A stretch of 42,159 nt of DNA from Bifidobacterium breve (GTDB lineage Bacteria > Actinomycetota > Actinomycetes > S36-B12), in the NCBI GenBank assembly GCA_945861775.1, contig CAMAVT010000003.1, positions 1-42,159 of the forward strand. The letters are read 5' to 3'. Both the position numbers and the translations under genes were made by a program. A model generated the notes under the pieces. It searched no databases. It was not told the DNA's origin and worked only from the letters and a program-made list of their open reading frames with translations. Below, in pieces: positions 9,949 through 38,447 of this stretch; the stretch's first letter is position 1, and each line of letters starts with the position of its first letter.

Positions 9949-11739
9949 TCAAACTTTAGTGAGACGCACGTCGCGTACGTGATTGCGGGCTGCCATTGCG
10001 CCAGAATCATCAACGGCTAAATGTGCCTTTAGTTCAGCAGCAACCCGATCCTGGTAATGCGTGAGTTCTGCCTCGGTTCGCTCCTGACTCCAGCCAAGTT
10101 CAGCACCCATGATTTGAGCCACCTCTTCGGCTGCTTCCAAGCCTTGATCGGGTGTTTCAATTGAGAGGTGGGTTCGCCGGGTCAAAATGTCGTCGATGTG
10201 CAGTGCGCCTTCATGGGTCACCGCATATAAAGCCTCGACCCGCAGGTAGCCCGCTCCACCTGCTATCGGCTGGGCAAGTTCAGGACGGTACTTCAAGATC
10301 GAAATAAGGTCACCCACCATCGATCCGTAACGGCCGAGTAGGTGTTCGATTCCTTTGGTGTTGAGCCCAAAGTTTTTTCCCGTTGCCCTCAACTCGGTTT
10401 GGACTTGATCAAAGTTCGTCGCGCCTATTAGCAAAATGTCTTCTGTTTCGGATTGGGGAACGCCTTGAAGCAGGCCGCGACTTTCGAGGTCAACGACTGC
10501 GGCATTGACTGCGTCTTCGGCCATAATCCGATAAGTGGTGTATTTGCCACCCGCAATTGTGGTGAAACCAGGAACGCTCGTTTCAACTGCATGCTCCCGG
10601 CTCAGGTCACTGGTCGCACCCTCTTTGCCCTTGATCAGCGGACGCAGGCCGGCATAGACGCCATCGATATCGTCGACAGTGAGTCCAACATTAAGAACGC
10701 GGTTAACATTTCGTAGAAGGTACTCAATGTCGGTGGCGCTTGCGGCCGGGTGATCCAGTCCTAGCTCCCAAGGAGTGTCAGTTGTTCCAATAAGCCAATG
10801 AGCTCCCCATGTGCGAATAAACAACACGCTGTCTTCGGCTCTGACGAATACCGAGACTTCCGAATCAATCCGGTCACGTGGAACCAAGATGTGAACACCT
10901 TTTGAGGCTTGCACGGAGAAGTCTGAGTTACCACCAGCCATTTTTTGAAGTGAGTCGGTCCACACTCCGGTTGCGTTGATGACCGTCTTAGCCGAGATGT
11001 GAAATTCACTTCCGTTTTCTAGATCCTTCACATCAGCGCCGGTGACGGCTCCCGTTTGGTCATGGGAGATGCCAATAACTTTGAGTGCTGTTGCTGCCAC
11101 GGCGCCGTATGCGGCGGCCGTGCGGACTAGTTCCAGCGTGTGGCGCGAGTCGTCCACTTGGGCATCAAAAAACGAAATACCTCCGACCAAACTCTTCTTC
11201 GATAAACCGGGAGCGCGTTCAAGTACTTGCTTGCGACTCAATTGTTTATGACGTGGGACTGCACCTGCTCCACCGATCGTGTCATAGAGAAAAAGCCCTG
11301 CGCCCATGTACGCGCGCTCCCAAATACGATGTTCGATTGGGTAAATGAATTCAATTGGGCGGACGAGGTGTGGGCATAATTTCTCCAGCATGAGACTGCG
11401 CTCATTTAATGCCTCGCGGACCAAACCAAAGTTGAACTGCTCAAGGTAGCGCAGCCCGCCGTGGAAAAGCTTGCCCGAACGACTCGAAGTTCCTGCTGCC
11501 CAATCTCGCATTTCAATCAGTGCGACACTTAAACCGCGGGAAGCTGCATCAAGAGCGCACCCGGCTCCGGTAACGCCACCACCGATCACCAACACGTCAA
11601 ATTCTTGGTCGGCTAACGCCGCCAAAGCGCCTTCGCGCTGGCTAGGGCCAAGGATCGAATTCACTAATTCCACCTGCGCATCCTCGCAGGTCACCGATAG
11701 CGCTCCCCTCCTATGTACACGAGTGAGCAGGTTGAGCAA
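9949..11739 (-). CDS. glpD: Aerobic glycerol-3-phosphate dehydrogenase (GlpD-like); true start probably internal to the ORF
   Basis: VIGGGVTGAGCALDAASRGLSVALIE, GTSSRSGKLFHGGLRYLEQ, GVWTDS, AGGKYTTYR motifs. Confidence 0.92.
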   Translation of the reverse strand: MLNLLTRVHRRGALSVTCEDAQVELVNSILGPSQREGALAALADQEFDVLVIGGGVTGAGCALDAASRGLSVALIEMRDWAAGTSSRSGKLFHGGLRYLEQFNFGLVREALNERSLMLEKLCPHLVRPIEFIYPIEHRIWERAYMGAGLFLYDTIGGAGAVPRHKQLSRKQVLERAPGLSKKSLVGGISFFDAQVDDSRHTLELVRTAAAYGAVAATALKVIGISHDQTGAVTGADVKDLENGSEFHISAKTVINATGVWTDSLQKMAGGNSDFSVQASKGVHILVPRDRIDSEVSVFVRAEDSVLFIRTWGAHWLIGTTDTPWELGLDHPAASATDIEYLLRNVNRVLNVGLTVDDIDGVYAGLRPLIKGKEGATSDLSREHAVETSVPGFTTIAGGKYTTYRIMAEDAVNAAVVDLESRGLLQGVPQSETEDILLIGATNFDQVQTELRATGKNFGLNTKGIEHLLGRYGSMVGDLISILKYRPELAQPIAGGAGYLRVEALYAVTHEGALHIDDILTRRTHLSIETPDQGLEAAEEVAQIMGAELGWSQERTEAELTHYQDRVAAELKAHLAVDDSGAMAARNHVRDVRLTKV

Positions 11740-14294: not shown

Positions 14295-15136
14295 AAACTA
14301 AGAAAGCACTTCCTTTCCGGGTCGAATTGATTCGGCAACTCAAGCGCAAGCGCACCCTAATTGCGTTAATTCTCCTGATCGCACTTCCCCTGATCGTGGT
14401 AACGGCCGTCAAGTTTGGCCCCTCCTCTGACAGCAACAATGGTGGTGGCGGATTCGGCGACGGTGACCTTGACCTGGTGGGCTTAGCCACCTCCGGTGGA
14501 TGGAACTTCGCACTGACCATGATGTTTTTTGCATCCGGCTTCCTGCTTCTCATCCTTGTCGCAATGTTCGCGGGTGACACTGTTGCAAGTGAAGCTTCCT
14601 GGTCAACCTTGCGCTATCTCCTGATCGCTCCAGTTCCTCGCAGGCGATTACTGACCATCAAGTTAGCTGTGGCATTGTTGTTGTCGTTTGTTTCGATTGT
14701 GGTGTTGGTTGGATTTTCCTATCTTGTGGGACTAGTCGCTTTTGGCAGCGGAAATCTTGCCACTCCAACAGCCGGTGTTTTCAGCAATTCTGAGGCGCTA
14801 TGGCGAATGTCGATTATTTCGGTGTACATCTTTATTACCCTTTTGTTCGCTGCAGGCATTGCGTTCCTTTTGAGTGTCCTGACAGACGTTCCACTGGGAG
14901 CGGTGGGTGGTGCTGTTGTCATCGTTATCGTGTGCAATATTCTCGATGCAATTGATGCACTCGGGGACCTCAGACAATGGCTTCCCACCGATTACGGTTC
15001 CGCTTGGATTGGCGCCCTCAACCGTGAAATTGACTGGACCGGCATGTCCCGTGGCGTTGCCTACTCCGTGGTGAGCTTCATTATTTTTATCACGATTGCC
15101 TACTGGCGTTTTGATCGCAAGGACATCACTTCCTAA
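14291..15136 (+). CDS. ABC-2 type transporter permease
   Basis: Multiple TM segments, TVASEASWSTLRYLLIAPVPRRRLLTIKL; 4-bp overlap with the ATPase fusion. Confidence 0.88.
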   Translation: MKTKKALPFRVELIRQLKRKRTLIALILLIALPLIVVTAVKFGPSSDSNNGGGGFGDGDLDLVGLATSGGWNFALTMMFFASGFLLLILVAMFAGDTVASEASWSTLRYLLIAPVPRRRLLTIKLAVALLLSFVSIVVLVGFSYLVGLVAFGSGNLATPTAGVFSNSEALWRMSIISVYIFITLLFAAGIAFLLSVLTDVPLGAVGGAVVIVIVCNILDAIDALGDLRQWLPTDYGSAWIGALNREIDWTGMSRGVAYSVVSFIIFITIAYWRFDRKDITS

Positions 15137-15162
15137 GATAAAATACGTAAAAAGGAGAAGAA

Positions 15163-15357
15163 ATGATTTCAATCAATATTGATATGGACTCTTGCCAGAA
15201 CTACGGGCAGTGCGTATTTGAAGCTGAGGACATTTTTCAACTCGATGACGCCGGAAACATCCAATACACCAAGGAAGTCCCCGACGACCGTCTCGAAGAC
15301 GTTGAGAGCGCCGTTGACGTTTGCCCTATGCAGGCAATCAGCTTCACGACCACTTAA
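15163..15357 (+). CDS. 3Fe-4S type ferredoxin
   Basis: CQNYGQC (CX5C) and distal VCPMQAI; strong SD aaggagaagaaATG. Confidence 0.88.
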   Translation: MISINIDMDSCQNYGQCVFEAEDIFQLDDAGNIQYTKEVPDDRLEDVESAVDVCPMQAISFTTT

Positions 15358-17637: not shown

Positions 17638-18207
17638 TTATTGACTGGCAAGGGTCCAGCGTTCCAGCAATCGTGAGTGCAGCTCTTCGACCTGTCGAGG
17701 TGTAATGCGATTTTGTGTCACGACGCGTCGGTAGAGAAACGGTGCGACAAGGTCCTCAACACACTGCGCAATATCAAGTCGAGCATCAATTAAACCTTCC
17801 TTTTGCGCGCCACGAATGATGGAAGCAGCGCGCGAACGAGTTTGTGAAAATGCTCGGCGGTGCACTTCAGCAAAGGCGTCGTCGCGCCAAGAGCCTTCAA
17901 TTAAAGCCACCAGCATCGCGGTATAGGTCGGGTCATTAAGTCGACGCGCGTAGTCGACAAGATAGTCGTGCAATCCCGTGCTTGGGTCTGCACCAAGGTT
18001 GAGTGGTTCTTGGTGCATCAACTCATCAAATGCCTCGCAGGCTAGTGCGGCCAAATCGGGCCAGTTGCGGTAGATCGTGCTTCGAGCGATACCCGATTCG
18101 GCAGCAATCCGATCGACAGTCAAACCAACTAGTCCTTCTGAAACCAAGACCTGGCTGACAGCTTGGTACACAATTGCTCGCGTACGCTCAAATCGTGCAT
18201 CGGTCAT
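17638..18207 (-). CDS. TetR/AcrR family transcriptional regulator
   Basis: GLTVDRIAAESGIARSTIYRNWPDLAALACEAFDEL HTH. Confidence 0.93.
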   Translation of the reverse strand: MTDARFERTRAIVYQAVSQVLVSEGLVGLTVDRIAAESGIARSTIYRNWPDLAALACEAFDELMHQEPLNLGADPSTGLHDYLVDYARRLNDPTYTAMLVALIEGSWRDDAFAEVHRRAFSQTRSRAASIIRGAQKEGLIDARLDIAQCVEDLVAPFLYRRVVTQNRITPRQVEELHSRLLERWTLASQ

Positions 18208-23416: not shown

Positions 23417-24262
23417 TTAGTCTGGGCGAACGGCGGTAAGGACCGAGTCCAAGCCCTCGGCGATTTGGCGGGCGGTGAGGAATGGATCCTGCGCCTTTAG
23501 TTCGGTTGAAATAACCTCAATGGAGAAAGTGGAATCTGCACGGTGCGCATTTCGTTCTCGGAAAAGTCCGACTAGGTCAAACTCCCCCAATCCTGGGATT
23601 CTTCGATTGCGCAGACAATCCTCGCGAAGATCTTCAGGGTATTCGCATACAAGTGTTCCATCGTTGATCTGAAGTGTTGAAATATATGGCCATAGGTCAT
23701 CAAGATGGGATAACGGTAAATCATTGCGATACAGGTGCCAGATATCTAGGCACATCGAGAGATTAGGTCGATCTGCTAAACGGATTATCGATGCAGCGTC
23801 TGCGGGGGTCTTCATATTTGTGAATGGCAATGGTTCCAGAACTACATCAACATTCCATTGCGCGAATCGGTCAGCCACCCGACCAGCTCGAAGGGCAGCC
23901 TGCGTCTCCGTTTCGCTGTAGGGCCCAACGGCCTGCAATCGATCTGGTCGCAAGTGCTCGGCCAGTAAGGCTGCAAGGTCTTCGAGCGGGTCAGTTTCCT
24001 CGCCCATAACGCGAATGGCCTCGAGTTCGGCAACACGCACACCGAACTGATCGAGTTTGTGATCCAGTTCAGCGAGGTCATAGGTTTGCAGCCACTGTTT
24101 CATCCAACGAACGCTGAGTCCAACATCGACGAAACCAGCATCGCGGGCTGCCTCGAAACGCGTTTCCATCGGTACTTCGGCAATACAGTTGAACGAGAAA
24201 GTGAAGTCGGCAACGACCGGGGCGCTAATCCGTGAACTAATTACCGGCGAGGTCACGAGCAA
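23417..24262 (-). CDS. Sugar phosphate isomerase/epimerase family (AP endonuclease 2-like TIM barrel); start uncertain
   Basis: FEAARDAGFVDVGLSVRW...VVLEPLPFTNMKTPADAASIIRLADRPNLSMCLDIWHLYRN. Confidence 0.87.
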   Translation of the reverse strand: MLVTSPVISSRISAPVVADFTFSFNCIAEVPMETRFEAARDAGFVDVGLSVRWMKQWLQTYDLAELDHKLDQFGVRVAELEAIRVMGEETDPLEDLAALLAEHLRPDRLQAVGPYSETETQAALRAGRVADRFAQWNVDVVLEPLPFTNMKTPADAASIIRLADRPNLSMCLDIWHLYRNDLPLSHLDDLWPYISTLQINDGTLVCEYPEDLREDCLRNRRIPGLGEFDLVGLFRERNAHRADSTFSIEVISTELKAQDPFLTARQIAEGLDSVLTAVRPD

Positions 24263-25391
24263 TACCCTCGTCGATCAGTCTTTGAATTTGGTGGTGAAAG
24301 GCTGGGATTTTGCATTCGCGGTCGTTGAAGAGGTTTCTCTTATAAAAAGATGAACGCGAAGTCGCAGCAATGTCTTCCCACGTCCAAACATCCTCGCCAA
24401 CAACGATTTTCAGGTGGTCCCAGTGTCGCTGCGTGCGATCAAGGTAATCCTGATCATCAGTCTTGTACCAGAGGTCCCAGGTTTCAAAACGAGTCTTGTC
24501 ATGGGTAATGGGAACTGCGCGGAAAAGTTGCAGATGCTCGGGGTTGTTGTTGAACACCGATGTCGGGAAGATCGTGTAATGGCAGATTGCCACCGATTGG
24601 TGATCCTGCGTCTCTTGCAATTTTGACAGCGTTCCCTTCAATGGCACAACCATCATGGAATGTCGTTCGAACTCAAAAATGCGCATCTCACGACCATCTT
24701 TTACATCTTGCGGTGGAATATGGTGCAGTGCTTGCGCGTGATAAAACTCGTTGAATGCGTCGACGACTACTTTCCAGTTGACATCAACGTCCCATGTCAT
24801 TTTCTCATTAAGGTACATGTCTTCCATGTGGTACGCACCAAGGTCCGCGATGATGTCTTCGCCGAGGTACTCCATCAGTGGCGGTGCAACTCCGGGGCCA
24901 GCGAGCACACCCCACACCCAACCGGCCCATTCGGCAACTTCGATCTTGGGAGCTGCCAAGTCGCGAAGTTCTTCGGGGTCAAAATCTTCACTGTCGGGGA
25001 CACCGATTACCTTGCCGTCAAAGTCATAAGCCCAGCCATGCCATGCACACTTGAATCGACGTGCACACTCGCCCGATTCGCGCACGATGCGAGCACCTCG
25101 ATGCTGACACACATTATGAAAACCAGTTACCGAGCCGTCATTTTTACGGGTGATAACAACCGTCTCACCCTGTCCCTCCCAGACGACATGGTCGCCGGTG
25201 TTCACGAGTTCTTCGGACCTACAGAGAATTTGCCAGCTGTTGTTCAGAACGTATTTGCGCTCGAGTTCGAAGCGATACGGATCGGTGTACCAATCGGCGG
25301 GAATAGTCTCGGACTTTCCTGGAGTATTGGGGATCTCCGGTGCAAATCGAATTGGGGCATCACCGCGGGTGGGTGGGGTGAATATGGTCAT
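24237..25391 (-). CDS. Rieske aromatic ring-hydroxylating oxygenase alpha subunit (Rieske A)
   Basis: CQHRGARIV...CAWHGW Rieske motif; DAFNEFYHAQALHH mononuclear iron site. Confidence 0.95.
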   Translation of the reverse strand: MTIFTPPTRGDAPIRFAPEIPNTPGKSETIPADWYTDPYRFELERKYVLNNSWQILCRSEELVNTGDHVVWEGQGETVVITRKNDGSVTGFHNVCQHRGARIVRESGECARRFKCAWHGWAYDFDGKVIGVPDSEDFDPEELRDLAAPKIEVAEWAGWVWGVLAGPGVAPPLMEYLGEDIIADLGAYHMEDMYLNEKMTWDVDVNWKVVVDAFNEFYHAQALHHIPPQDVKDGREMRIFEFERHSMMVVPLKGTLSKLQETQDHQSVAICHYTIFPTSVFNNNPEHLQLFRAVPITHDKTRFETWDLWYKTDDQDYLDRTQRHWDHLKIVVGEDVWTWEDIAATSRSSFYKRNLFNDRECKIPAFHHQIQRLIDEGIARDLAGN

Positions 25392-25430
25392 GAGCCGTTC
25401 CTTTCACAGCGAGCGAAGCCCTAACCCTAC

Positions 25431-25444
25431 ACTTGTCTAGACAA
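25431..25444. promoter_or_regulatory. Candidate operator ACTTGTCTAGACAA upstream of Rieske A
   Basis: 12-bp perfect palindrome TTGTCTAGACAA 40 bp upstream of 25391; identical 14-mer at 28834-28847. Confidence 0.65.
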
Positions 25445-25486
25445 CTTCCACAAGTGTTTAAGGGAATCAACTTCTAGGAATTCGAG

Positions 25487-26443
25487 CTAAATATCGAGGA
25501 CCAGTCGGTCACCCTTGCAGCGTGAGACACAGGGCATCATGTAGACGCCTTCCTCACGATCCTCTTCCGAGAGGATCGAGTCCCGGTGGGCAATATCTCC
25601 CGAGATCACCTTGGTCTCGCACGTTCCGCAAACACCCTCGGTGCACGAGGTCATCACGGGAACTCCATTATCAATGAGTACCTCGACAATGCTCCGGTCG
25701 CGAGGAATCACAAACTCCGCTCCAGAACTGTTCAACACGACGGTGAATTCATGGTCACCCGAATCACCCGTGGTGTCGATCGGTTTAGCGGCAAAGCGTT
25801 CAACGTATGGAGTTGGCCGGCCAAGTCGTTCGCAGGCTTGTTCAACAGCTGAAATGAGTGGCTCGGGGCCACAGCAGTACACCGCGGTATCTGGTGCCGC
25901 TTTGCTTAAAATGTCATCGAGTGGCAGCAGTCCCTTTTCGTCTTGCGGCCATATAACAACACCGAGCGCTTCAAGGCGATCCCGAAAAGCCATTGAATTT
26001 CGGGTGCGGCCACCGTAATAAAACGTCCACGGCGCGTCTTTGTCGAAGATAACTTGGCCGAGCATCGGGACCATTGGTGTTACTCCAACACCACCTGCAA
26101 TGAAAAGATAGGAAGGCGCATCAACCAATGGGAAATGGTTTCGCGGTCCACGTGTGCGAACGTGGTCTCCAACATTGATGTTGTCATGGACAAATGAAGA
26201 TCCACCGCGACCATCAGGCTCACGCAGTACAGCAATCCGCCACGTGTCGGCGCCAAAATGACTACACAATGAATACTGACGTTCAATCCCGTTACCGAGT
26301 TGTACATCGATATGGGCACCGGGTTCCCAACTGGGAAGCTTCTCACCGCTAGGAGCGCCTACCCGGATGGAAACAACGCCATCGGCTTCTTCAACCCGCT
26401 CGATGACAACCAGATCTCGGTACTCCTCGTAAACATAAGACAT
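25487..26443 (-). CDS. PDR/VanB family oxidoreductase (FMN/NAD/2Fe-2S Rieske reductase)
   Basis: RQYSLCS, FIAGGVGVTPM, YCCGPEPLI, CTEGVCGTCETKV...C 2Fe-2S motif; likely start at 26443. Confidence 0.94.
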   Translation of the reverse strand: MSYVYEEYRDLVVIERVEEADGVVSIRVGAPSGEKLPSWEPGAHIDVQLGNGIERQYSLCSHFGADTWRIAVLREPDGRGGSSFVHDNINVGDHVRTRGPRNHFPLVDAPSYLFIAGGVGVTPMVPMLGQVIFDKDAPWTFYYGGRTRNSMAFRDRLEALGVVIWPQDEKGLLPLDDILSKAAPDTAVYCCGPEPLISAVEQACERLGRPTPYVERFAAKPIDTTGDSGDHEFTVVLNSSGAEFVIPRDRSIVEVLIDNGVPVMTSCTEGVCGTCETKVISGDIAHRDSILSEEDREEGVYMMPCVSRCKGDRLVLDI

Positions 26444-26521
26444 GCCTTCAGGGTATCGGAGCCCACGAACCACGCAACAATTACCACCGCACTGATGTTG
26501 CCGATATTTGTGCCAAGAAAC

Positions 26522-26563
26522 ACAACATCGCCTGCACTCGCAAAGGAGTGCAGGCGATGTTGT
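26522..26563 (-). terminator. Terminator hairpin downstream of the 26574-27359 SDR
   Basis: Perfect 18-bp inverted repeat ACAACATCGCCTGCACTC-GCAAAG-GAGTGCAGGCGATGTTGT. Confidence 0.82.
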
Positions 26564-26573
26564 TAGTTAATTA

Positions 26574-27359
26574 CTAGAACGCGGCCGAACCACCGTCAAC
26601 GTTGTAGGTGGCGCCGGTCATGCCGTTACCCAATGGACCAGCGAGAAGAACCGCCATGCCGGCAACCTGCTCAACCGTTTGCAATTCCTTGGTGAGGCAA
26701 TCATTAGCGAAGTCCTCAAGGAATGCTTCGTAAGTGATGCCCGATGCTTCGGCAACCTGTGCACCTGCATCTTTCATCAGTTCCGTCTCAATTGGGCCAG
26801 GACAGATTGCGTTGCACGTGACACCACTTGTGCCGTACTCCACCGCGGTCGCCTTTGAGAGGCCGATCATGGCGTGCTTGCCGGCGATGTAGTGACTCAC
26901 GGCAACCTTTGAAGCGACCTTGCCTTCGATTGAAGCGATGTTGATGATCCGGCCGTAACCGGCAGGCAACATGTACTTCAGTGCGCGACGAGTGCCCCAA
27001 AATGCAGTGCTGGCATTCCACTCAAGACCCTTGAGCCATGCTTCGTCGCTGAGATCCCCAATAAGCGCCCAACCATCGGAGCCACCGGCGCAGTTGACCA
27101 TGATGTCAAGCTTTCCGAACTTCTCGACCGCATAGTCCACGAGTGCGTCGACTTCGGTACGCACGAGTGCATCACATTTTTTGAAGAGCGCGCGATCACC
27201 AGCCTTCAAGCGCTCCAACGCGTAGGCGCCCTTTTCTTCGGAGCGATTACCTAAAACAACGGATGCACCTTCAGCGATAAATGCTTCGGCGATTCCAAAT
27301 CCAATGCCGGTGCTTCCGGCGGTGATTACCGCTACGCGGCCTTCGAGACTGCCACCCAT
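26574..27359 (-). CDS. SDR family oxidoreductase
   Basis: ITAGSTGIGFGIAEAF, NCAGGSD, SHYIAGKHAMIGLSKA, GATYNVDGG. Confidence 0.94.
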   Translation of the reverse strand: MGGSLEGRVAVITAGSTGIGFGIAEAFIAEGASVVLGNRSEEKGAYALERLKAGDRALFKKCDALVRTEVDALVDYAVEKFGKLDIMVNCAGGSDGWALIGDLSDEAWLKGLEWNASTAFWGTRRALKYMLPAGYGRIINIASIEGKVASKVAVSHYIAGKHAMIGLSKATAVEYGTSGVTCNAICPGPIETELMKDAGAQVAEASGITYEAFLEDFANDCLTKELQTVEQVAGMAVLLAGPLGNGMTGATYNVDGGSAAF

Positions 27360-27380
27360 GAATTTCTCCTGCTTCTCGCG

Positions 27381-27398
27381 GACAGCCGGACGGCTGTC
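27381..27398. promoter_or_regulatory. Inverted repeat GACAGCCG-GA-CGGCTGTC upstream of the SDR gene
   Basis: Perfect 8-bp arms, 2-bp spacer, 22-39 bp upstream of ATG at 27359. Confidence 0.5.
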
Positions 27399-27492
27399 AC
27401 TGTTTTATTCCCCAGTTATCGGGGTCTATCTCACACCACTTACAAGTGCCTGTCAACGCAACTGGGGAAGTCGAGATGTAACCGATATCTGA

Positions 27493-28797
27493 CTAATTGG
27501 TGATAACGCGGGGAAGAACAGCCTTACTCAGGTCGCCACCGTGAACCGCCTCGGCACCTTCATGCATGAGTCGGTTGATGGTCCGGTGAACGTATTGCAC
27601 GCCCGGTTCATTACGGCCAAAGATCTGGGTTTTACCGCCGGTTACGGCGACTCCTTTTTGAACCCCAAAGCCGGTGATGTAGTCCTCGTCGTAGGTGACG
27701 TCGTAGAACCAGTCGCGCATGACTGCAAGTTCATGCTGCTCGCGTTCATCATTTGTGATGGGTGTCCGAACCAAAATACGCTGCTCGGTGATTGACTCGG
27801 TCACCTTGGTTGTTGGCAATGGGAAAGCAACAGCCATCCGCTGACGCCATCCGCCAGCGATTGAGAAACCTGGGAACAGCCAGTTGATGGTTCCCACATT
27901 TGCAGTGGGATCCCACGTGTCTTCGGGGTCATCAAGGTGATTCTCAATTTCGCGCAACGCAAAGGCAACGCGCTCGTGCGCACCGTGGCCATCAAAGGTT
28001 GCGGTGTTGCTGAGATTTGTTTTGAAGACCGTGTCTTTGTGAAGCGCAGCGAAATGATAACCCTCTAGATAGCCTTCGATCGCAACTTTCCAGTTGGGAC
28101 CGGGCATCATGCGGGTAGAAAACAGATGACAATCGGCAAGTTTGAGGCTCTCCAAAATAGGAGCGAAGTCGCCGAGCCAAGAGTCGATATCAATTTCGAG
28201 TTCGGGGGTCAGGCACACAAAAATTACACCGTGTTTTTCAACACAGGGAAGTTTGATCATGTTGCGCTCGGACTTGTCAAAGTCACCGAAAGTACTCTCC
28301 CCGTAAAGCCCTTTAAGTTGACCGTCCATGCCATAACTCCAGTTGTGATAAGGACAGGTAAGCGCTCGCGAGGTTCCTAGACCAGCCGAACAAATCAATG
28401 CGCCGCGGTGGCGACATACGTTGAGCATTGCATGGACTTGACCCTGTGAATCCCGGGTAATAACAACAGGAACACCCACGACCTCGATAGCTTTGTGATC
28501 ATTCTTTTCTGGCAATTCACATGAGAGTGCCAGCGGAAGCGGGATCCGCTTGAAAATCAACTCGATCTCACTTGCGAAGAGTTCTTCATCCAGGTAATTC
28601 TCAACGGGCTCTTGGAAAGTGGCTTCGGCTTGATCGGTTGTCTTGTTCTTTGTGTGGGCAATCAGTCGAGCCATCATGGCCAACGCATCCTCGCGCGCTG
28701 CCCCATCAAGGATCTTGCTGGGGAGATAAGCGGGAGTGGAGCCTTGCGTCTCTACAACCTGCGTCTCAACAACTTCGGTCTCAATAATCTGGGTCAT
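27493..28797 (-). CDS. Rieske oxygenase alpha subunit (Rieske B)
   Basis: CRHRGALIC...CPYHNWSYG; EGYLEGYHFAALH iron site. Confidence 0.95.
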   Translation of the reverse strand: MTQIIETEVVETQVVETQGSTPAYLPSKILDGAAREDALAMMARLIAHTKNKTTDQAEATFQEPVENYLDEELFASEIELIFKRIPLPLALSCELPEKNDHKAIEVVGVPVVITRDSQGQVHAMLNVCRHRGALICSAGLGTSRALTCPYHNWSYGMDGQLKGLYGESTFGDFDKSERNMIKLPCVEKHGVIFVCLTPELEIDIDSWLGDFAPILESLKLADCHLFSTRMMPGPNWKVAIEGYLEGYHFAALHKDTVFKTNLSNTATFDGHGAHERVAFALREIENHLDDPEDTWDPTANVGTINWLFPGFSIAGGWRQRMAVAFPLPTTKVTESITEQRILVRTPITNDEREQHELAVMRDWFYDVTYDEDYITGFGVQKGVAVTGGKTQIFGRNEPGVQYVHRTINRLMHEGAEAVHGGDLSKAVLPRVITN

Positions 28798-28833
28798 GGG
28801 GGCTCCTTAGCAGCGACTGAGGCGAGTGTATCA

Positions 28834-28847
28834 ACTTGTCTAGACAA
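28834..28847. promoter_or_regulatory. Candidate operator ACTTGTCTAGACAA upstream of Rieske B
   Basis: Same palindrome as 25431-25444, 37 bp upstream of 28797. Confidence 0.65.
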
Positions 28848-28850
28848 ATA

Positions 28851-29456
28851 CTAGGGCTGATCCAAGTGCGATGTTTCATTGATGCTCACCAGCACAAAAC
28901 GGCCGTCGGGCCACACCTGAACCCGTGAAATGGAGGTATACCCCGGATTGAAAAAGAAGCGGCGAGGGCTTTCAAGCACTCCTGCCAGAAAACTATTTGA
29001 GGCGCCTCCATGACTAACAGCCACAATGCGCTCACCTTGATGCGCCAGACCTATATCGCGAACAACTTCCAACATGTTTGCCTGAAGTTCTTCATGGTTG
29101 TGCTCCGGCATAAAACCTTCCTCGAAGCGCCCTTCACGAAATGAACGCACGCGTTCGGGGTCGGGAAGATTCTCTATCCCCGCGTAGTGGGTTGCGCTGG
29201 ATTTCCATTCTTGAAGTCGCTCATCAATGACGACATCATGACCGAGAATCCGCGCAAGTGGGCCGGCCGTTTCAATGGCGCGCTTGAGCTGGCTTGAATA
29301 GATCGCGGTAATTCCTTTGTCCGCAAGATAGGCGCCAACAAGCTCCGCCTGTTCACGACCAGCTTCACCCAGTCCAGGATCCTTTGTGCCGTCTGGCTCC
29401 GGGAGTGCATGGCGAACAAGAAGTACTTCACATGATTCACTCATCAACGAGGGCAC
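28851..29456 (-). CDS. Histidine phosphatase family protein
   Basis: VLLVRHALPEPDG, YSSQLKRAIETA, IVAVSHGGASN. Confidence 0.92.
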   Translation of the reverse strand: MPSLMSESCEVLLVRHALPEPDGTKDPGLGEAGREQAELVGAYLADKGITAIYSSQLKRAIETAGPLARILGHDVVIDERLQEWKSSATHYAGIENLPDPERVRSFREGRFEEGFMPEHNHEELQANMLEVVRDIGLAHQGERIVAVSHGGASNSFLAGVLESPRRFFFNPGYTSISRVQVWPDGRFVLVSINETSHLDQP

Positions 29457-31720: not shown

Positions 31721-32253
31721 CCGGGGAACCCCGGGAAAGCCCGCTCATAGTCCGGTAACTCAGCCACTCCAGCTGCGCGCCCCGGCCAGCGCTTGCGCTC
31801 TTGATCACCGAGACCGCCCGCAGCCAGATCCGAAAGCGGCATCGAATACAAGCTGAGTACGTGACGCTTGGCGAATCTCCATCTACCTTCATCACGACGG
31901 TAGACATCTTGATAACGAATTGATGTGGACAGGGTCAGGTCCGAGCTACCCAACTCCGCATAAGCGATAACAGTTCCGGTTGCGTGATTCTCGTCAACGA
32001 GGTCAACCACTATCCCGTGCGGGTCATGCCAGGTGGCCGTGAAAGGTGCATGTTTGATTTTAAAATTTTCGATGATGGCGGCGCGGCCGGAAGTCGTGCT
32101 GTTTGCAGAACCAAATACTGCGTCAAGAGTAAAGAGCTCACCAAGAGCATCCCACTGAGCGTCGTCGAGCAAAGTTGCATAAGAAACAACCAGGTCATTG
32201 ATGGCGAATCGATCTTCCAACCGCGAAATCCGCTGTTCTAATGTGTGCATCAC
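31717..32253 (-). CDS. NTF2/SnoaL-like family protein
   Basis: LEDRFAINDLVVSYATLLDDAQWDALGELFTLDAVF...RYQDVYRRDEGRWRFAKRHV; ATGA overlap with the phosphatase. Confidence 0.86.
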   Translation of the reverse strand: MMHTLEQRISRLEDRFAINDLVVSYATLLDDAQWDALGELFTLDAVFGSANSTTSGRAAIIENFKIKHAPFTATWHDPHGIVVDLVDENHATGTVIAYAELGSSDLTLSTSIRYQDVYRRDEGRWRFAKRHVLSLYSMPLSDLAAGGLGDQERKRWPGRAAGVAELPDYERAFPGFPG

Positions 32254-32356
32254 CTGCGTGAGCGTACTGCAGGCAACTTGCAGGAATTAATGGCCGCCAT
32301 TGACCCGAAGTGTCCCTGCGCACCCACTGCGCTATTCGCCCCGATAGCGTCTCGCC

Positions 32357-33085
32357 ATGGGTGAAGTTCCACTGTATGAGCGCGTGCGCCAGTCAATTGC
32401 GCAAACACTCACCGATGGCACACTCTCCCCCGGCGACAAACTTCCCAGTGAGGCACGGCTGGCCGAGGAATTCGGTGTCAACCGGCTTACCGTCCGGCGA
32501 GCAATTGAGGAACTTGCCCGAGCCGGCGCGGTGGAGTCTCGACAGGGTTCCGGCACATTTGTGAGCGCCAGGATTATCCGGCTTCCGCTATCCCAGCAAC
32601 TCTCCACGGACTCACTTGTTTCCCGGCTTACCAGCCAGATCGCCGAACAGGGTCTCACCTATGAAGACATCCTTCTGCGGGCCGTTAAATTGAAAAGCTC
32701 GCATCTGAATACGACCCTCGAACTGCCTTTGGGTCCGCTGTGGCGGGTAGACAATGCGTTGGTGGTTAATGGCGCTACCTGGATGTGGTCGAGTTCGTGG
32801 TTCCCTCGAGAACTGCTCACAGATCCCGCTGGAAACTGGGACCAGGTCACCGGCCTGTACGGCCAACTCAATGCAGCACTGGGTGAACCACGTCCGGTCT
32901 GGCGGGCAATCTCCGCGGACGCCGCAACCCTTGTTGACGCAGAGATCCTCGGCATTCGAGCCAGCTCGCCCGTGCTCGTGCGCGACGGTCTCACCGCGGG
33001 AGAAAACGGTGAGCCGATGCTTCGGGTATCGCGCCGGGCGCGCATGGACCGGGTGAGCTACGTACTGCGCTACGACCAGGATTGA
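32357..33085 (+). CDS. GntR family (HutC/UTRA type) transcriptional regulator
   Basis: PLYERVRQSIAQTLTDGTLSPGDKLPSEARLAEEFGVNRLTVRRAIEELARAGAVESRQGSGTFV wHTH with UTRA-like C-terminus. Confidence 0.94.
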   Translation: MGEVPLYERVRQSIAQTLTDGTLSPGDKLPSEARLAEEFGVNRLTVRRAIEELARAGAVESRQGSGTFVSARIIRLPLSQQLSTDSLVSRLTSQIAEQGLTYEDILLRAVKLKSSHLNTTLELPLGPLWRVDNALVVNGATWMWSSSWFPRELLTDPAGNWDQVTGLYGQLNAALGEPRPVWRAISADAATLVDAEILGIRASSPVLVRDGLTAGENGEPMLRVSRRARMDRVSYVLRYDQD

Positions 33086-33100
33086 CCAAGATTGATCGAG

Positions 33101-34525
33101 TTATCGGGCCATCCACTCGTCTAAAATTTGGTGATAGTGCCGAATCCGATTCTCTTGGTACCGCGTAAGCCGCACGCCTGGTCCGCGCATTGACTTCAAA
33201 CCTTCTTGGATGAATGGCATGTTGGCCATATCTTGGTCAAAGACCGGTCCGAGTAATCCGATTTCCGTGATGTCAGAGAAAGTCTCCCCCGGCTTTAGCC
33301 AACGTGGCTCTGCGGGCTTGGGGTGTGAACCGTCAGCCGGCTTTTGTGCCAGTAAAAATACTTCCGCAAGGCACTTGTCCGGGTCGTTGCCGTGCGGGCG
33401 GAAACGGTACACGGCGTTGGTCCGGGGTCCGGCGAAAACATAGAAGTTGGGGAATACGAAGTACTGAATTCCATCTAAGAGTTCTGAATCTGTCCAATGA
33501 TCCTGTTCGCTGCCGAACTGTGCTGCAAGGGAGGTGCGCATTGCGGCGGCAAGTTCGCGACGGGCGGTTGAGTCCAAAGGAACACGTGGCGTGCCTTCAT
33601 CTCCCACAGCCAAGTCGCGACCTTTACCCTGCGTGTAAAAAGCGCGCGTTTCATAGTAGGAGTCCAGTACTTCTTGTTCACTGATGTGGTTTGCGATCGT
33701 TGGGCTGGGCACCCCCTGCGGCACAATCTGGCGACTCCAGTTCTCGCCTTTGATCACGTCGTACTGGGTGTTTTCATCGCCGAGCCATTCCATCATTTGT
33801 GGGTGCGTGGCCAACGAGTGGAAGCCTTCAATGAATGCTTCGCCCGCGACTTTCCAGTTGCAATCGATGACGCCACCGAAGTGCGAATACACGACCCGGT
33901 CTTCGTAATTCCAACGATCCCAGTCGTTGAGCATGGAACCCATGAAACTCTCAAGTGGTTCAGCATCAGGATCTTGGTTGATGAAAACAAAACCGTTCCA
34001 CACGGCAACCTTGGCTTCGGGCAACGGGAGGTTCGTGGGATCTATTTCTGGGAAGTCCCAAGCGCACGGGAGATTCTTGAGGGTGCCATCAATATTCCAA
34101 CTGAAGCCGTGGAATGGGCAGCGCAGTTCACTTACCCGCCCACCTTCTTGGCGCAGTGCCCGACCACGATGCAGGCATACGTTGTAGAGCGCCTTAATGC
34201 TGCCGTCGGGTTGGCGCATAATGATGAGTTTGTCGTCAACGATGTCGTAGGTGATGTGATCGCCAGCATTGGGGATGTGATCCTCGCGGCACACAAATTG
34301 CCATACCTTACGCCACACTTTGTCGACTTCACGATCATGGAATTCGCGAGAAATATACCGATCAATATCCATGGGGGCAGTCCCGAGATCCTCATTAATG
34401 TCGTATCTAAGTGCCGCCGGGACTGGACGTGAGTCTTCATCGAGATATGACTGAACACTGGTCCCCGGGGATCGCGGGCTTGGTGGCTCAGTTGATTCAC
34501 GCTGGGGAGATGCGAGTTCGGTCAT
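33101..34525 (-). CDS. Rieske oxygenase alpha subunit (Rieske C)
   Basis: CLHRGRALR...CPFHGFSWN; EAFIEGFHSLATH iron site. Confidence 0.95.
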   Translation of the reverse strand: MTELASPQRESTEPPSPRSPGTSVQSYLDEDSRPVPAALRYDINEDLGTAPMDIDRYISREFHDREVDKVWRKVWQFVCREDHIPNAGDHITYDIVDDKLIIMRQPDGSIKALYNVCLHRGRALRQEGGRVSELRCPFHGFSWNIDGTLKNLPCAWDFPEIDPTNLPLPEAKVAVWNGFVFINQDPDAEPLESFMGSMLNDWDRWNYEDRVVYSHFGGVIDCNWKVAGEAFIEGFHSLATHPQMMEWLGDENTQYDVIKGENWSRQIVPQGVPSPTIANHISEQEVLDSYYETRAFYTQGKGRDLAVGDEGTPRVPLDSTARRELAAAMRTSLAAQFGSEQDHWTDSELLDGIQYFVFPNFYVFAGPRTNAVYRFRPHGNDPDKCLAEVFLLAQKPADGSHPKPAEPRWLKPGETFSDITEIGLLGPVFDQDMANMPFIQEGLKSMRGPGVRLTRYQENRIRHYHQILDEWMAR

Positions 34526-34605
34526 GGCTGATGGACTCCTTGTTTACGGGTATCAGAATTATGTCCCCGATGTTATAGGACGTCAAATAAAGATGCTTAC
34601 CCAAC

Positions 34606-34644
34606 AAGGAAAGGGCCCGACCAAATTGGCCGGACCCTTTCCTT
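34606..34644 (-). terminator. Terminator hairpin downstream of the 34664-35767 gene
   Basis: AAGGAAAGGGCCCGACC / GGCCGGACCCTTTCCTT near-perfect inverted repeat, AAATT loop. Confidence 0.75.
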
Positions 34645-34663
34645 TACAGCGAGTGCTTGAGAC

Positions 34664-35767
34664 TTACTTTACGCCCCAAATCTTCTTGAACTGATTTACA
34701 TAGTCCTTGACGCCCAAGTAGTCACCCTCTGGAGTGAGGACCAACGACTTAGCATTTTGCTTGGTCAGGATCTGTGTTGGCAATTCGTTTGTGACGTATG
34801 GCATACCGATCGAGTTACGGGCCATGCTGTCCACGACACTCCAACCAACGATGGGGAGTGAGTAGCCGGTCCATGCTGATTCGGTGCCGTCCTTGAGTCC
34901 CTGGATATTTGCCTTACCAGCGGTCAAGCCACCGATTGCGATTGCAGGGTTGTTCAGAGCAGCAGAGACACCGGTGACCCAGCCACCGAGGTCGGAGACG
35001 AGCCAGTTGGTACCTGGGTTTGATGCAACAATGTTGACGGCTGCTTGGGGAACCTTACCCGCGAAGATGTCGGTCAACTGCTGATCATTTTCTTCGTATG
35101 TGCACTTGGTTGGGCACAGCTTCTTCAGGTTCTTAGCGTAAGAAACGTCGAAGCGACGAAGGATTGGGTACAAAGGAACCGTGATTCCCTGAGCCTTCAC
35201 GTTGCCCTTTGTTGCTGCAACGGAGTAGGCAGCGATCATCTGGCCCCAAAGGTCAATTGTCTTTGGACCGGCAATGTGGGTGTCCTCCAGTGCTGATGTT
35301 GGCTTGCTCATGCATGCAGAGCAGATAACGACAACACCCTGCTTCTCAGCCTTGGTCAGAAGATCTGACAAAGTTGATGGCTCAATACCGGAGATGTGGA
35401 TGTAGTTCGGGTTGAGTGACAGCGCCTGGCTGAAAAGTGAACGCTGGGTTTCAGGGCTGACTGCGCCAACGAGTTCTTTGTACTTCCAGCCGAGTGTCTT
35501 GGCAGCTGCACCAATGGCTTCATCGAGCACCTTGTTTTCATCGCCACCGTTTGAGAGGGCTACGACAAACTGACCCTTTGGTGGAACAGACTTCAAAGGT
35601 GTGGTGATCCCAATGCTTGTTGGGGTCTTGTTGTACTTAGCTACAATCGCGGCGGAAAGGGTGACACCCTTGTCCTGTGGATTTGCAGCAAAGGCTGCGG
35701 GTGCAATACCCGAAACCAAGAGGGCAGCGGATCCTATAAAAGCAACCGCTGTGGTTAGCTTGCGCAT
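34664..35767 (-). CDS. Periplasmic-binding-protein-like solute-binding protein (sugar ABC type)
   Basis: Signal peptide; VVALSNGGDENKVLDEAIGAAAKTLGW, ALSLNPNYIHISGI, GVVVICSACMS. Confidence 0.8.
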   Translation of the reverse strand: MRKLTTAVAFIGSAALLVSGIAPAAFAANPQDKGVTLSAAIVAKYNKTPTSIGITTPLKSVPPKGQFVVALSNGGDENKVLDEAIGAAAKTLGWKYKELVGAVSPETQRSLFSQALSLNPNYIHISGIEPSTLSDLLTKAEKQGVVVICSACMSKPTSALEDTHIAGPKTIDLWGQMIAAYSVAATKGNVKAQGITVPLYPILRRFDVSYAKNLKKLCPTKCTYEENDQQLTDIFAGKVPQAAVNIVASNPGTNWLVSDLGGWVTGVSAALNNPAIAIGGLTAGKANIQGLKDGTESAWTGYSLPIVGWSVVDSMARNSIGMPYVTNELPTQILTKQNAKSLVLTPEGDYLGVKDYVNQFKKIWGVK

Positions 35768-37364: not shown

Positions 37365-38447
37365 CTACCCCTGGCAGCTCTTGACCCGGAAGAGATTGTC
37401 GATTTGCGCACCACCGTGCGCTCGGCTGCAACGGAGTCGGGGTATCCAACCGCGGTGCTTGAACTCGAAAAATCAGAGACTGGTCTAGACCTTGCGTTGT
37501 GGTCACTGCTCGCGCAGGACATCGGGCTCTCTGCGGTCGGGCTACCTGAGTCTGCCGGCGGCTTGGGCGGCCTTGCCGAAATTCTTGCGGTGGCAGAAGA
37601 ACTAGGTGCCACGTTGGCGCCCGTTCCCTTTATTACCAGCACTGTTCTGTGCGGCCAAGTCTTGGCTGCAAGTGATGAAAGTTCAACTCCATATCTTGAG
37701 CGAATTGCGGCAGGTGAGATTGCGGCTCCCGCCTTTACCAATGCGCGCGGCCAATGGTCTGCGGGTGACATTTCATGTACGAGTGATGGTGAAAAAGTTT
37801 CGGGAACGGTCCGATTCGCGCCATTTGGTGCCAGTGCAACATTCTTTGTGGTTGCAGCCCGCACAGATTCAGGCATTGATGTATTTGTTGTTGAGGCTTC
37901 CGATGCGAACGTCAGCGCGTTGCCATCACTAGATTTCTCGCGGCCATCGGCAACCGTCACTTTCGATAGTTCCCCAGCAGTGCGACTGACGACCGGTGGA
38001 AATGGCGAGAGTGTAATCTCACACGCCGTTGACATAACACTGATGGCTGTTGCCGCTGATCAACTTGGCGGATCGCAGGCCTGTTTTGATATGACACTTG
38101 ACTATATAAAGGTGCGCCGCCAATTTAATCGGGAGATCGGTAGCTTCCAAGCCATCAAACACCGGATGACCGATGCCCTGATGCTCGTTGAAATGCTGCG
38201 ATCTGGGCTGGAAAAGGTGACATCGGGTGGCACGCAGGATCTTGCCGCGGATGCAGCGATGAATAAGTCCTGGGGGTCTGATTCTTACATTGCGATGACC
38301 GCCGAAGCAATTCAATTGCACGGTGGTATCGGTTTCACGTGGGAACACACCACGCACCTGTATTTCAGAAGGGCGCGCTACGACGCTGCGTTTCTCGGCG
38401 ATGGTTCATTTCAGCGCGAGCGCCTCGCCAAAGTGCTGAACTGGTAA
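37335..38447 (+). CDS. Acyl-CoA dehydrogenase family protein
   Basis: Central and C-terminal ACAD motifs: DQLGGSQACFDMTLDYIKVRRQFNREIGSFQAIKHRMTD, QLHGGIGFTWEHTTHLYFRRA. Confidence 0.92.
   Translation: MSFESAMSFELPLAALDPEEIVDLRTTVRSAATESGYPTAVLELEKSETGLDLALWSLLAQDIGLSAVGLPESAGGLGGLAEILAVAEELGATLAPVPFITSTVLCGQVLAASDESSTPYLERIAAGEIAAPAFTNARGQWSAGDISCTSDGEKVSGTVRFAPFGASATFFVVAARTDSGIDVFVVEASDANVSALPSLDFSRPSATVTFDSSPAVRLTTGGNGESVISHAVDITLMAVAADQLGGSQACFDMTLDYIKVRRQFNREIGSFQAIKHRMTDALMLVEMLRSGLEKVTSGGTQDLAADAAMNKSWGSDSYIAMTAEAIQLHGGIGFTWEHTTHLYFRRARYDAAFLGDGSFQRERLAKVLNW

Follow-up and report, generated by a model that had tools for sequence, protein, structure and literature searches.

A conserved palindrome at Rieske oxygenase promoters in Candidatus Nanopelagicales, the putative operator of a linked HutC-type GntR regulator

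Introduction

Which regulator, if any, acts at a palindrome that is repeated in front of two Rieske oxygenase genes, and in what way? The question is raised by the window, i.e. the whole stretch of 42,159 nt analysed here, which is the entire contig C3 of a 2.26-Mb MAG that is about 85% complete. Its genes include three Rieske oxygenases, a reductase, SDRs, an aldehyde dehydrogenase, two acyl-CoA dehydrogenases, a thiolase with an OB/ChsH2-type partner, SnoaL proteins and binding proteins, a content that looks like a cluster for the catabolism of a ring compound; in the literature searched, no paper links Nanopelagicales with Rieske genes. The original prediction held that a GntR-type regulator encoded in the same cluster controls Rieske A and Rieske B through the palindrome. 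Judged from the comparison of sequences presented below, AGTTGTCTAGACAACT, the consensus of the site, is very probably the operator of this linked HutC-subfamily GntR, which would block transcription of Rieske A and Rieske B until an effector releases it. The features under discussion are collected in Table 1.

Table 1. Positions of the proposed operators, promoter elements and cluster genes (window coordinates unless a locus is named)
Feature	Position	Strand	Basis and remarks
Operator 1 (before Rieske A)	25429..25448, core 25433-25444		20-bp minus-strand form GAAGTTGTCTAGACAAGTGT; kept in 17/17 Rieske A promoters read
Operator 2 (before Rieske B)	28832..28851, core 28836-28847		minus-strand form GTATTTGTCTAGACAAGTTG; kept in 18/18 Rieske B promoters read
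Rieske A core promoter, probable	25424..25453	-	-35 TTGTGG (25448-25453), -10 TAGGGT (25424-25429); by eye, cross-genus conservation
Rieske B -10 element TACACT, probable	28825..28830	-	just downstream of operator; by eye
Rieske A, ring-hydroxylating oxygenase alpha subunit, target gene	24237..25391	-	PF00355, PF00848
Rieske B, ring-hydroxylating oxygenase alpha subunit, target gene	27493..28797	-	PF00355, PF00848
Ferredoxin/flavin reductase (Fer2 + NAD binding)	25487..26473	-	domain matches, gene order; probably expressed from the Rieske B promoter
SDR dehydrogenase, between Rieske B and reductase	26574..27359	-	synteny
GntR/HutC-type regulator (wHTH + UTRA), proposed cognate repressor	32357..33085	+	PF00392, PF07702, co-occurrence, contact residues
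Rieske C, third oxygenase of the cluster	33101..34525	-	own promoter without palindrome
TetR	17638-18207		same cluster
GGTAGTTTCTTTAGATGGACTCCAGTA element	L056 2391, L069 5479, L049 3437/1167/8173, L074 629/2928, L065 15118, L071 3674

Two copies in one genome

The 12-bp perfect palindrome TTGTCTAGACAA does precede both Rieske genes, as originally described, and these are its only copies in the window, where no further match was found even with two mismatches allowed. The first copy lies in the 95-bp gap between the reductase gene (which ends at 25487) and Rieske A, 41 bp from the ATG at 25391, and the second in the 53-bp gap between a histidine phosphatase gene (ending at 28851) and Rieske B, 38 bp from the ATG at 28797; the genes bordering both gaps are co-directional on the minus strand, and the sequences around the two copies are ACTTGTCTAGACAAC and ACTTGTCTAGACAAA. 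That the bare 14-mer match carries little weight, which had been conceded from the start, is borne out by shuffled sequences, 31 of 100 of which gave at least two matches when two mismatches were allowed. The genome-wide scan that had been proposed as a check found TTGTCTAGACAA exactly twice in the whole 2.26-Mb MAG, both times before Rieske genes and against an expectation of 0.094 copies from base composition, with no third site at 0 or 1 mismatch. For two copies to fall no more than 80 bp from the window's three Rieske starts, the chance is about 5e-11; this figure treats the 12-mer as fixed beforehand, so a comparison across genomes tests the site better. A third GTCTAGAC core, at window positions 37483-37490 (ACTGGTCTAGACC), was set aside as a chance occurrence because it lies in the coding sequence of an acyl-CoA dehydrogenase and the orthologues do not have it. 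On another contig of the same genome (G000:C26, 6440-11376), a second Rieske B-like gene (44%) occurs without the palindrome and lies close to a distant homologue of the flavin oxidoreductase discussed below.

Conservation among relatives

The 146 genomes of the order (Candidatus Nanopelagicales MAGs) were searched with Rieske B and with the exact palindrome; the named relatives are mostly freshwater or estuarine MAGs titled Candidatus Nanopelagicales or Actinobacteria. Rieske B is present in 21 of them, spread over four genera of one family, to which all relatives with the system belong, and a class-wide sample of 395 genomes yielded no orthologues outside this family. The exact palindrome occurs in 16 genomes, 14 of which have Rieske B, i.e. 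in 14 of the 21 genomes with the gene versus 2 of the 125 without it (Fisher p=1e-12), although this and the other p-values given here count as independent genomes that are related, and many of the relatives are incomplete MAGs. Since kinship is ignored in these values, more weight belongs to the spread over four genera, the symmetric variants and the unlinked targets. Four loci with the Nanopelagicales cluster (L105, L106, L116 and L117; Rieske B identity 81-87%) come from MAG records titled Bifidobacterium breve, which look mislabelled.

Annotation of the relatives' loci against the genes of the window revealed a syntenic cluster, and a position weight matrix was built from 29 Rieske A and Rieske B sites. 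Every readable promoter of these two genes in the four genera has the site or a variant of it that differs by one or two bases, and the matrix finds sites even where a genome has no exact 12-mer; in genera g5 and g8, the promoter of a second copy of Rieske B (B') has a site too. The comparison of orthologous promoters, which the original prediction had called for, places the site at the same promoters in four genera, and almost nowhere else, and neither of the refuting outcomes named with that prediction, a lack of conservation or random scatter, was observed. Much of the symmetry is retained in the variants (GTTGTCTACACAAC, GTTGTATAGACAAC, GTCATCTAGACAAC), and the B' gene of one g5 genome has the fully symmetric CAAGTCATCTAGATGACTTG. 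Mean pairwise identity of the 16-bp core is 0.89 at Rieske A and 0.85 at Rieske B, as opposed to 0.31-0.41 for the flanks, which is a clear phylogenetic footprint and marks the palindrome as a true regulatory site that has been conserved in evolution.

Predicted targets outside the cluster

Sites were also found outside the cluster, before a flavin oxidoreductase gene and before a P450 gene, the promoters of which had been left out of matrix building. The flavin oxidoreductase is present in 21 of the 146 genomes and the P450 in 18, and both lie elsewhere in the genome, yet in nearly the same set of genomes as gntR (p=1e-20 and p=8e-16 for co-occurrence, respectively). Close orthologues of the flavin oxidoreductase with a readable promoter have a site scoring at least 10.4 in 10 of 11 cases, where the 95th percentile of random 166-mers is 1.5; a more distant oxidoreductase has a site in two g1 relatives (G008 and G011), and the P450 has one in a minority of genomes (4 of 17 promoters). 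The window's own genome has no site at its P450 promoter or at that of its (distant) oxidoreductase. Comparison of the sequences shows the sites, their conservation, their targets and their co-occurrence with gntR.

The linked GntR protein and its probable operator class

The product of the linked gntR gene has an N-terminal GntR wHTH domain (PF00392, 1.5e-22, above cut-off) and a C-terminal UTRA effector domain (PF07702, 1.3e-6, 28.8 bits with a cut-off of 23.8). Its best full-length NCBIfam match is PhnF (TIGR02325, 5.6e-34), but the score of 117.7 bits is below the 156.8-bit equivalog cut-off and no phosphonate genes were seen in the window, and an identity as the phosphonate regulator was rejected. 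Orthologues of gntR occur in 20 of the 146 genomes, 18 of them together with Rieske B; two genomes have gntR alone and three have Rieske B alone (p=5e-18), and these exceptions include fragmentary MAGs. In seven genomes, three of g8 and four of g12, the site also lies 36-38 bp before gntR itself, in one case in degenerate form. The gntR promoters of g5 and of g1, the genus of the window, have no site, so self-control is not general, and it was rejected for these two genera.

The operators of HutC regulators follow the consensus NyGTMTAKACNy, with the core GTMTAKAC (PMC4494728), and GTCTAGAC, which both window sites contain, has this core with its 4 nt between GT and AC; most sites of the family fit GTNTANAC, and some g5 and g8 half-sites read ATC. 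One of the closest comparisons is with NagR/YvoA of Bacillus subtilis and DasR of Streptomyces, GntR/HutC regulators of dre-sites, which likewise combine a HutC-type wHTH with UTRA and bind a palindrome with GT-4 nt-AC spacing, and whose recognition-helix Arg and wing Gly are kept here. Their half-site is TGGT, whereas here it is TTGT, and their targets are amino-sugar genes, whereas here they are oxygenases. In NagR, Arg38 reads G-5 and Arg48 reads G-4 (PMC4333415), and a survey of HutC regulators reported the same Arg-G link at this position (PMC4494728). After PSE (PGE in g12), all 20 orthologues have Ala, Ser or Thr and never Arg, while the second Arg (in VNRLT; the Arg48 equivalent) is invariant in all of them; G-4 is retained in most half-sites, and no site has G-5, its place being taken by T (or C). 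The missing Arg after PSE agrees with the change of half-site from TGGT to TTGT. Of the operator class first proposed, the HutC type with its GTMTAKAC fit therefore stands, and the DasR/NagR dre-type proper, with TGGT half-sites, gives way to a TTGT type. The choice of this GntR as regulator of Rieske A and Rieske B also gains support, at the level of sequence, from its linkage, its co-occurrence, the seven sites at gntR promoters and the fit to the HutC consensus and the contact residues.

Some g5 half-sites read AGTCATC and so lack the GT expected to be contacted by the conserved Arg. The half-sites AGTTGTC and AGTCATC alternate at orthologous g5 operators, even inside one genome (L076 about 10120-10310, L072 about 15060-15215, L052 3155, L075 6401). 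A separate array of four tandem GTNTANAC palindromes lies at 6887-7011 of L048 (G128:C50), before a geranylgeranyl-reductase-like FAD oxidoreductase; that genome does not have this gntR, and we read the array as operators of some other HutC-type regulator.

Position in the promoter and mode of control

When the core promoters were assigned by eye, the operator was found to fill the 18-bp spacer between the -35 and -10 elements of Rieske A. Across genera, the Rieske A site lies between a TTG-type -35 and a -10 that reads TAGATT (g8 and g12) or TAGGGT (window), and at Rieske B of g5 and g12, also by eye, TTGACA is found upstream and the -10 overlaps the left half-site. Strict sigma-70 scans gave no match at either window site. 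Because the sites overlap core promoters, repression is the most likely mode of control. A parallel is BguR of Streptococcus pneumoniae, a GntR repressor reported to have UTRA, the site of which (AAAAATGTCTAGACAAATTT) overlaps the -35 (PMC3585215). It shares the core TGTCTAGACA, and there too the operator overlaps the core promoter and represses, but BguR serves a single target, a cellobiose-responsive PTS operon of a Firmicute, whereas here there are several targets, some unlinked, around a catabolic cluster.

The identity of the binding protein, repression and the inducer are what we infer, as follows. A GntR dimer would sit on the palindrome with one subunit per half-site, and would block transcription from a position inside the Rieske A core promoter and against that of Rieske B. 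The operator would then be freed by an effector that binds to the UTRA domain, probably a pathway substrate or intermediate, so that the oxygenases are expressed, together with the unlinked flavin oxidoreductase and P450 in some relatives.

It is rather unlikely that GntR binds the palindrome as an activator or dual regulator instead of a simple repressor. The window promoters are without a good sigma-70 -35, as are activator-dependent promoters, and the -10 of g1 Rieske B is only fair, but in the conserved alignments the sites are found between -35 and -10 or on top of the -10, where a repressor usually binds, and both NagR and BguR, the latter with a nearly identical operator, are repressors. 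We give little credence, too, to a real operator with another binder, either the TetR of the cluster, which is syntenic with it in several genomes, or an unlinked transcription factor. The genome of the window has six further GntR-family matches, one of which (L121) has by eye a UTRA-like C-terminal region, and the bare gntR promoters of g1 and g5 would suit such a binder; against it stand the HutC form of the core, the sites before gntR in seven relatives and the way in which gntR orthologues track the sites. TetR itself is disfavoured because its operon has no site at any promoter in any locus examined. A chance match, or a non-regulatory repeat kept by shared descent (a terminator or a mobile or REP-like element), is very improbable and, so far as sequence comparison allows, already refuted. 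It is true that 14-mers are shared by chance in 42 kb and that two-mismatch matches are common in shuffles, but the two copies have unrelated flanks, the palindrome shows neither a loop nor a T run, its conservation in four genera is far above that of its flanks, and it predicts unlinked targets.

A second promoter element

The least expected finding was a 27-bp element, about GGTAGTTTCTTTAGATGGACTCCAGTA, which is conserved in the cluster at promoters other than those with the palindrome, namely before the SnoaL-PTP-ALDH-PGM operon, Rieske C, SDR 26574 and binding-protein genes. The loci are orthologous to the window gaps 32253-32357, 34525-34664 and 27359-27493, and the element is weak in the genus of the window. 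It suggests the site of a second regulator. Tentatively, one pathway may have two classes of promoter, one with the palindrome and GntR, which would read both AGTTGTC and AGTCATC, and the other with GGTAGTTTCTTTAGATGGACTCCAGTA and another regulator; the first class would hold the entry oxygenases (Rieske A, B and B', the flavin oxidoreductase and some P450s) and the second the SnoaL-aldehyde dehydrogenase operon, Rieske C, an SDR and the binding proteins.

Meaning for the lineage

The operator type is already known, whereas the regulon and its targets seem to be undescribed in the literature searched. What began as a guess from two sites becomes a defined regulon for an uncultured freshwater actinobacterial lineage, and this regulon points to members of the same pathway that are encoded on other contigs. 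The substrate of the cluster is not identifiable from sequence, as the similarity of the Rieske proteins to solved structures is limited to the general ring-hydroxylating fold, the P450 matches many families and the flavin oxidoreductase matches 2,4-dienoyl-CoA reductase. The regulator offers a handle on it, in that a compound which frees GntR from the 20-bp site would likely be a compound of the pathway.
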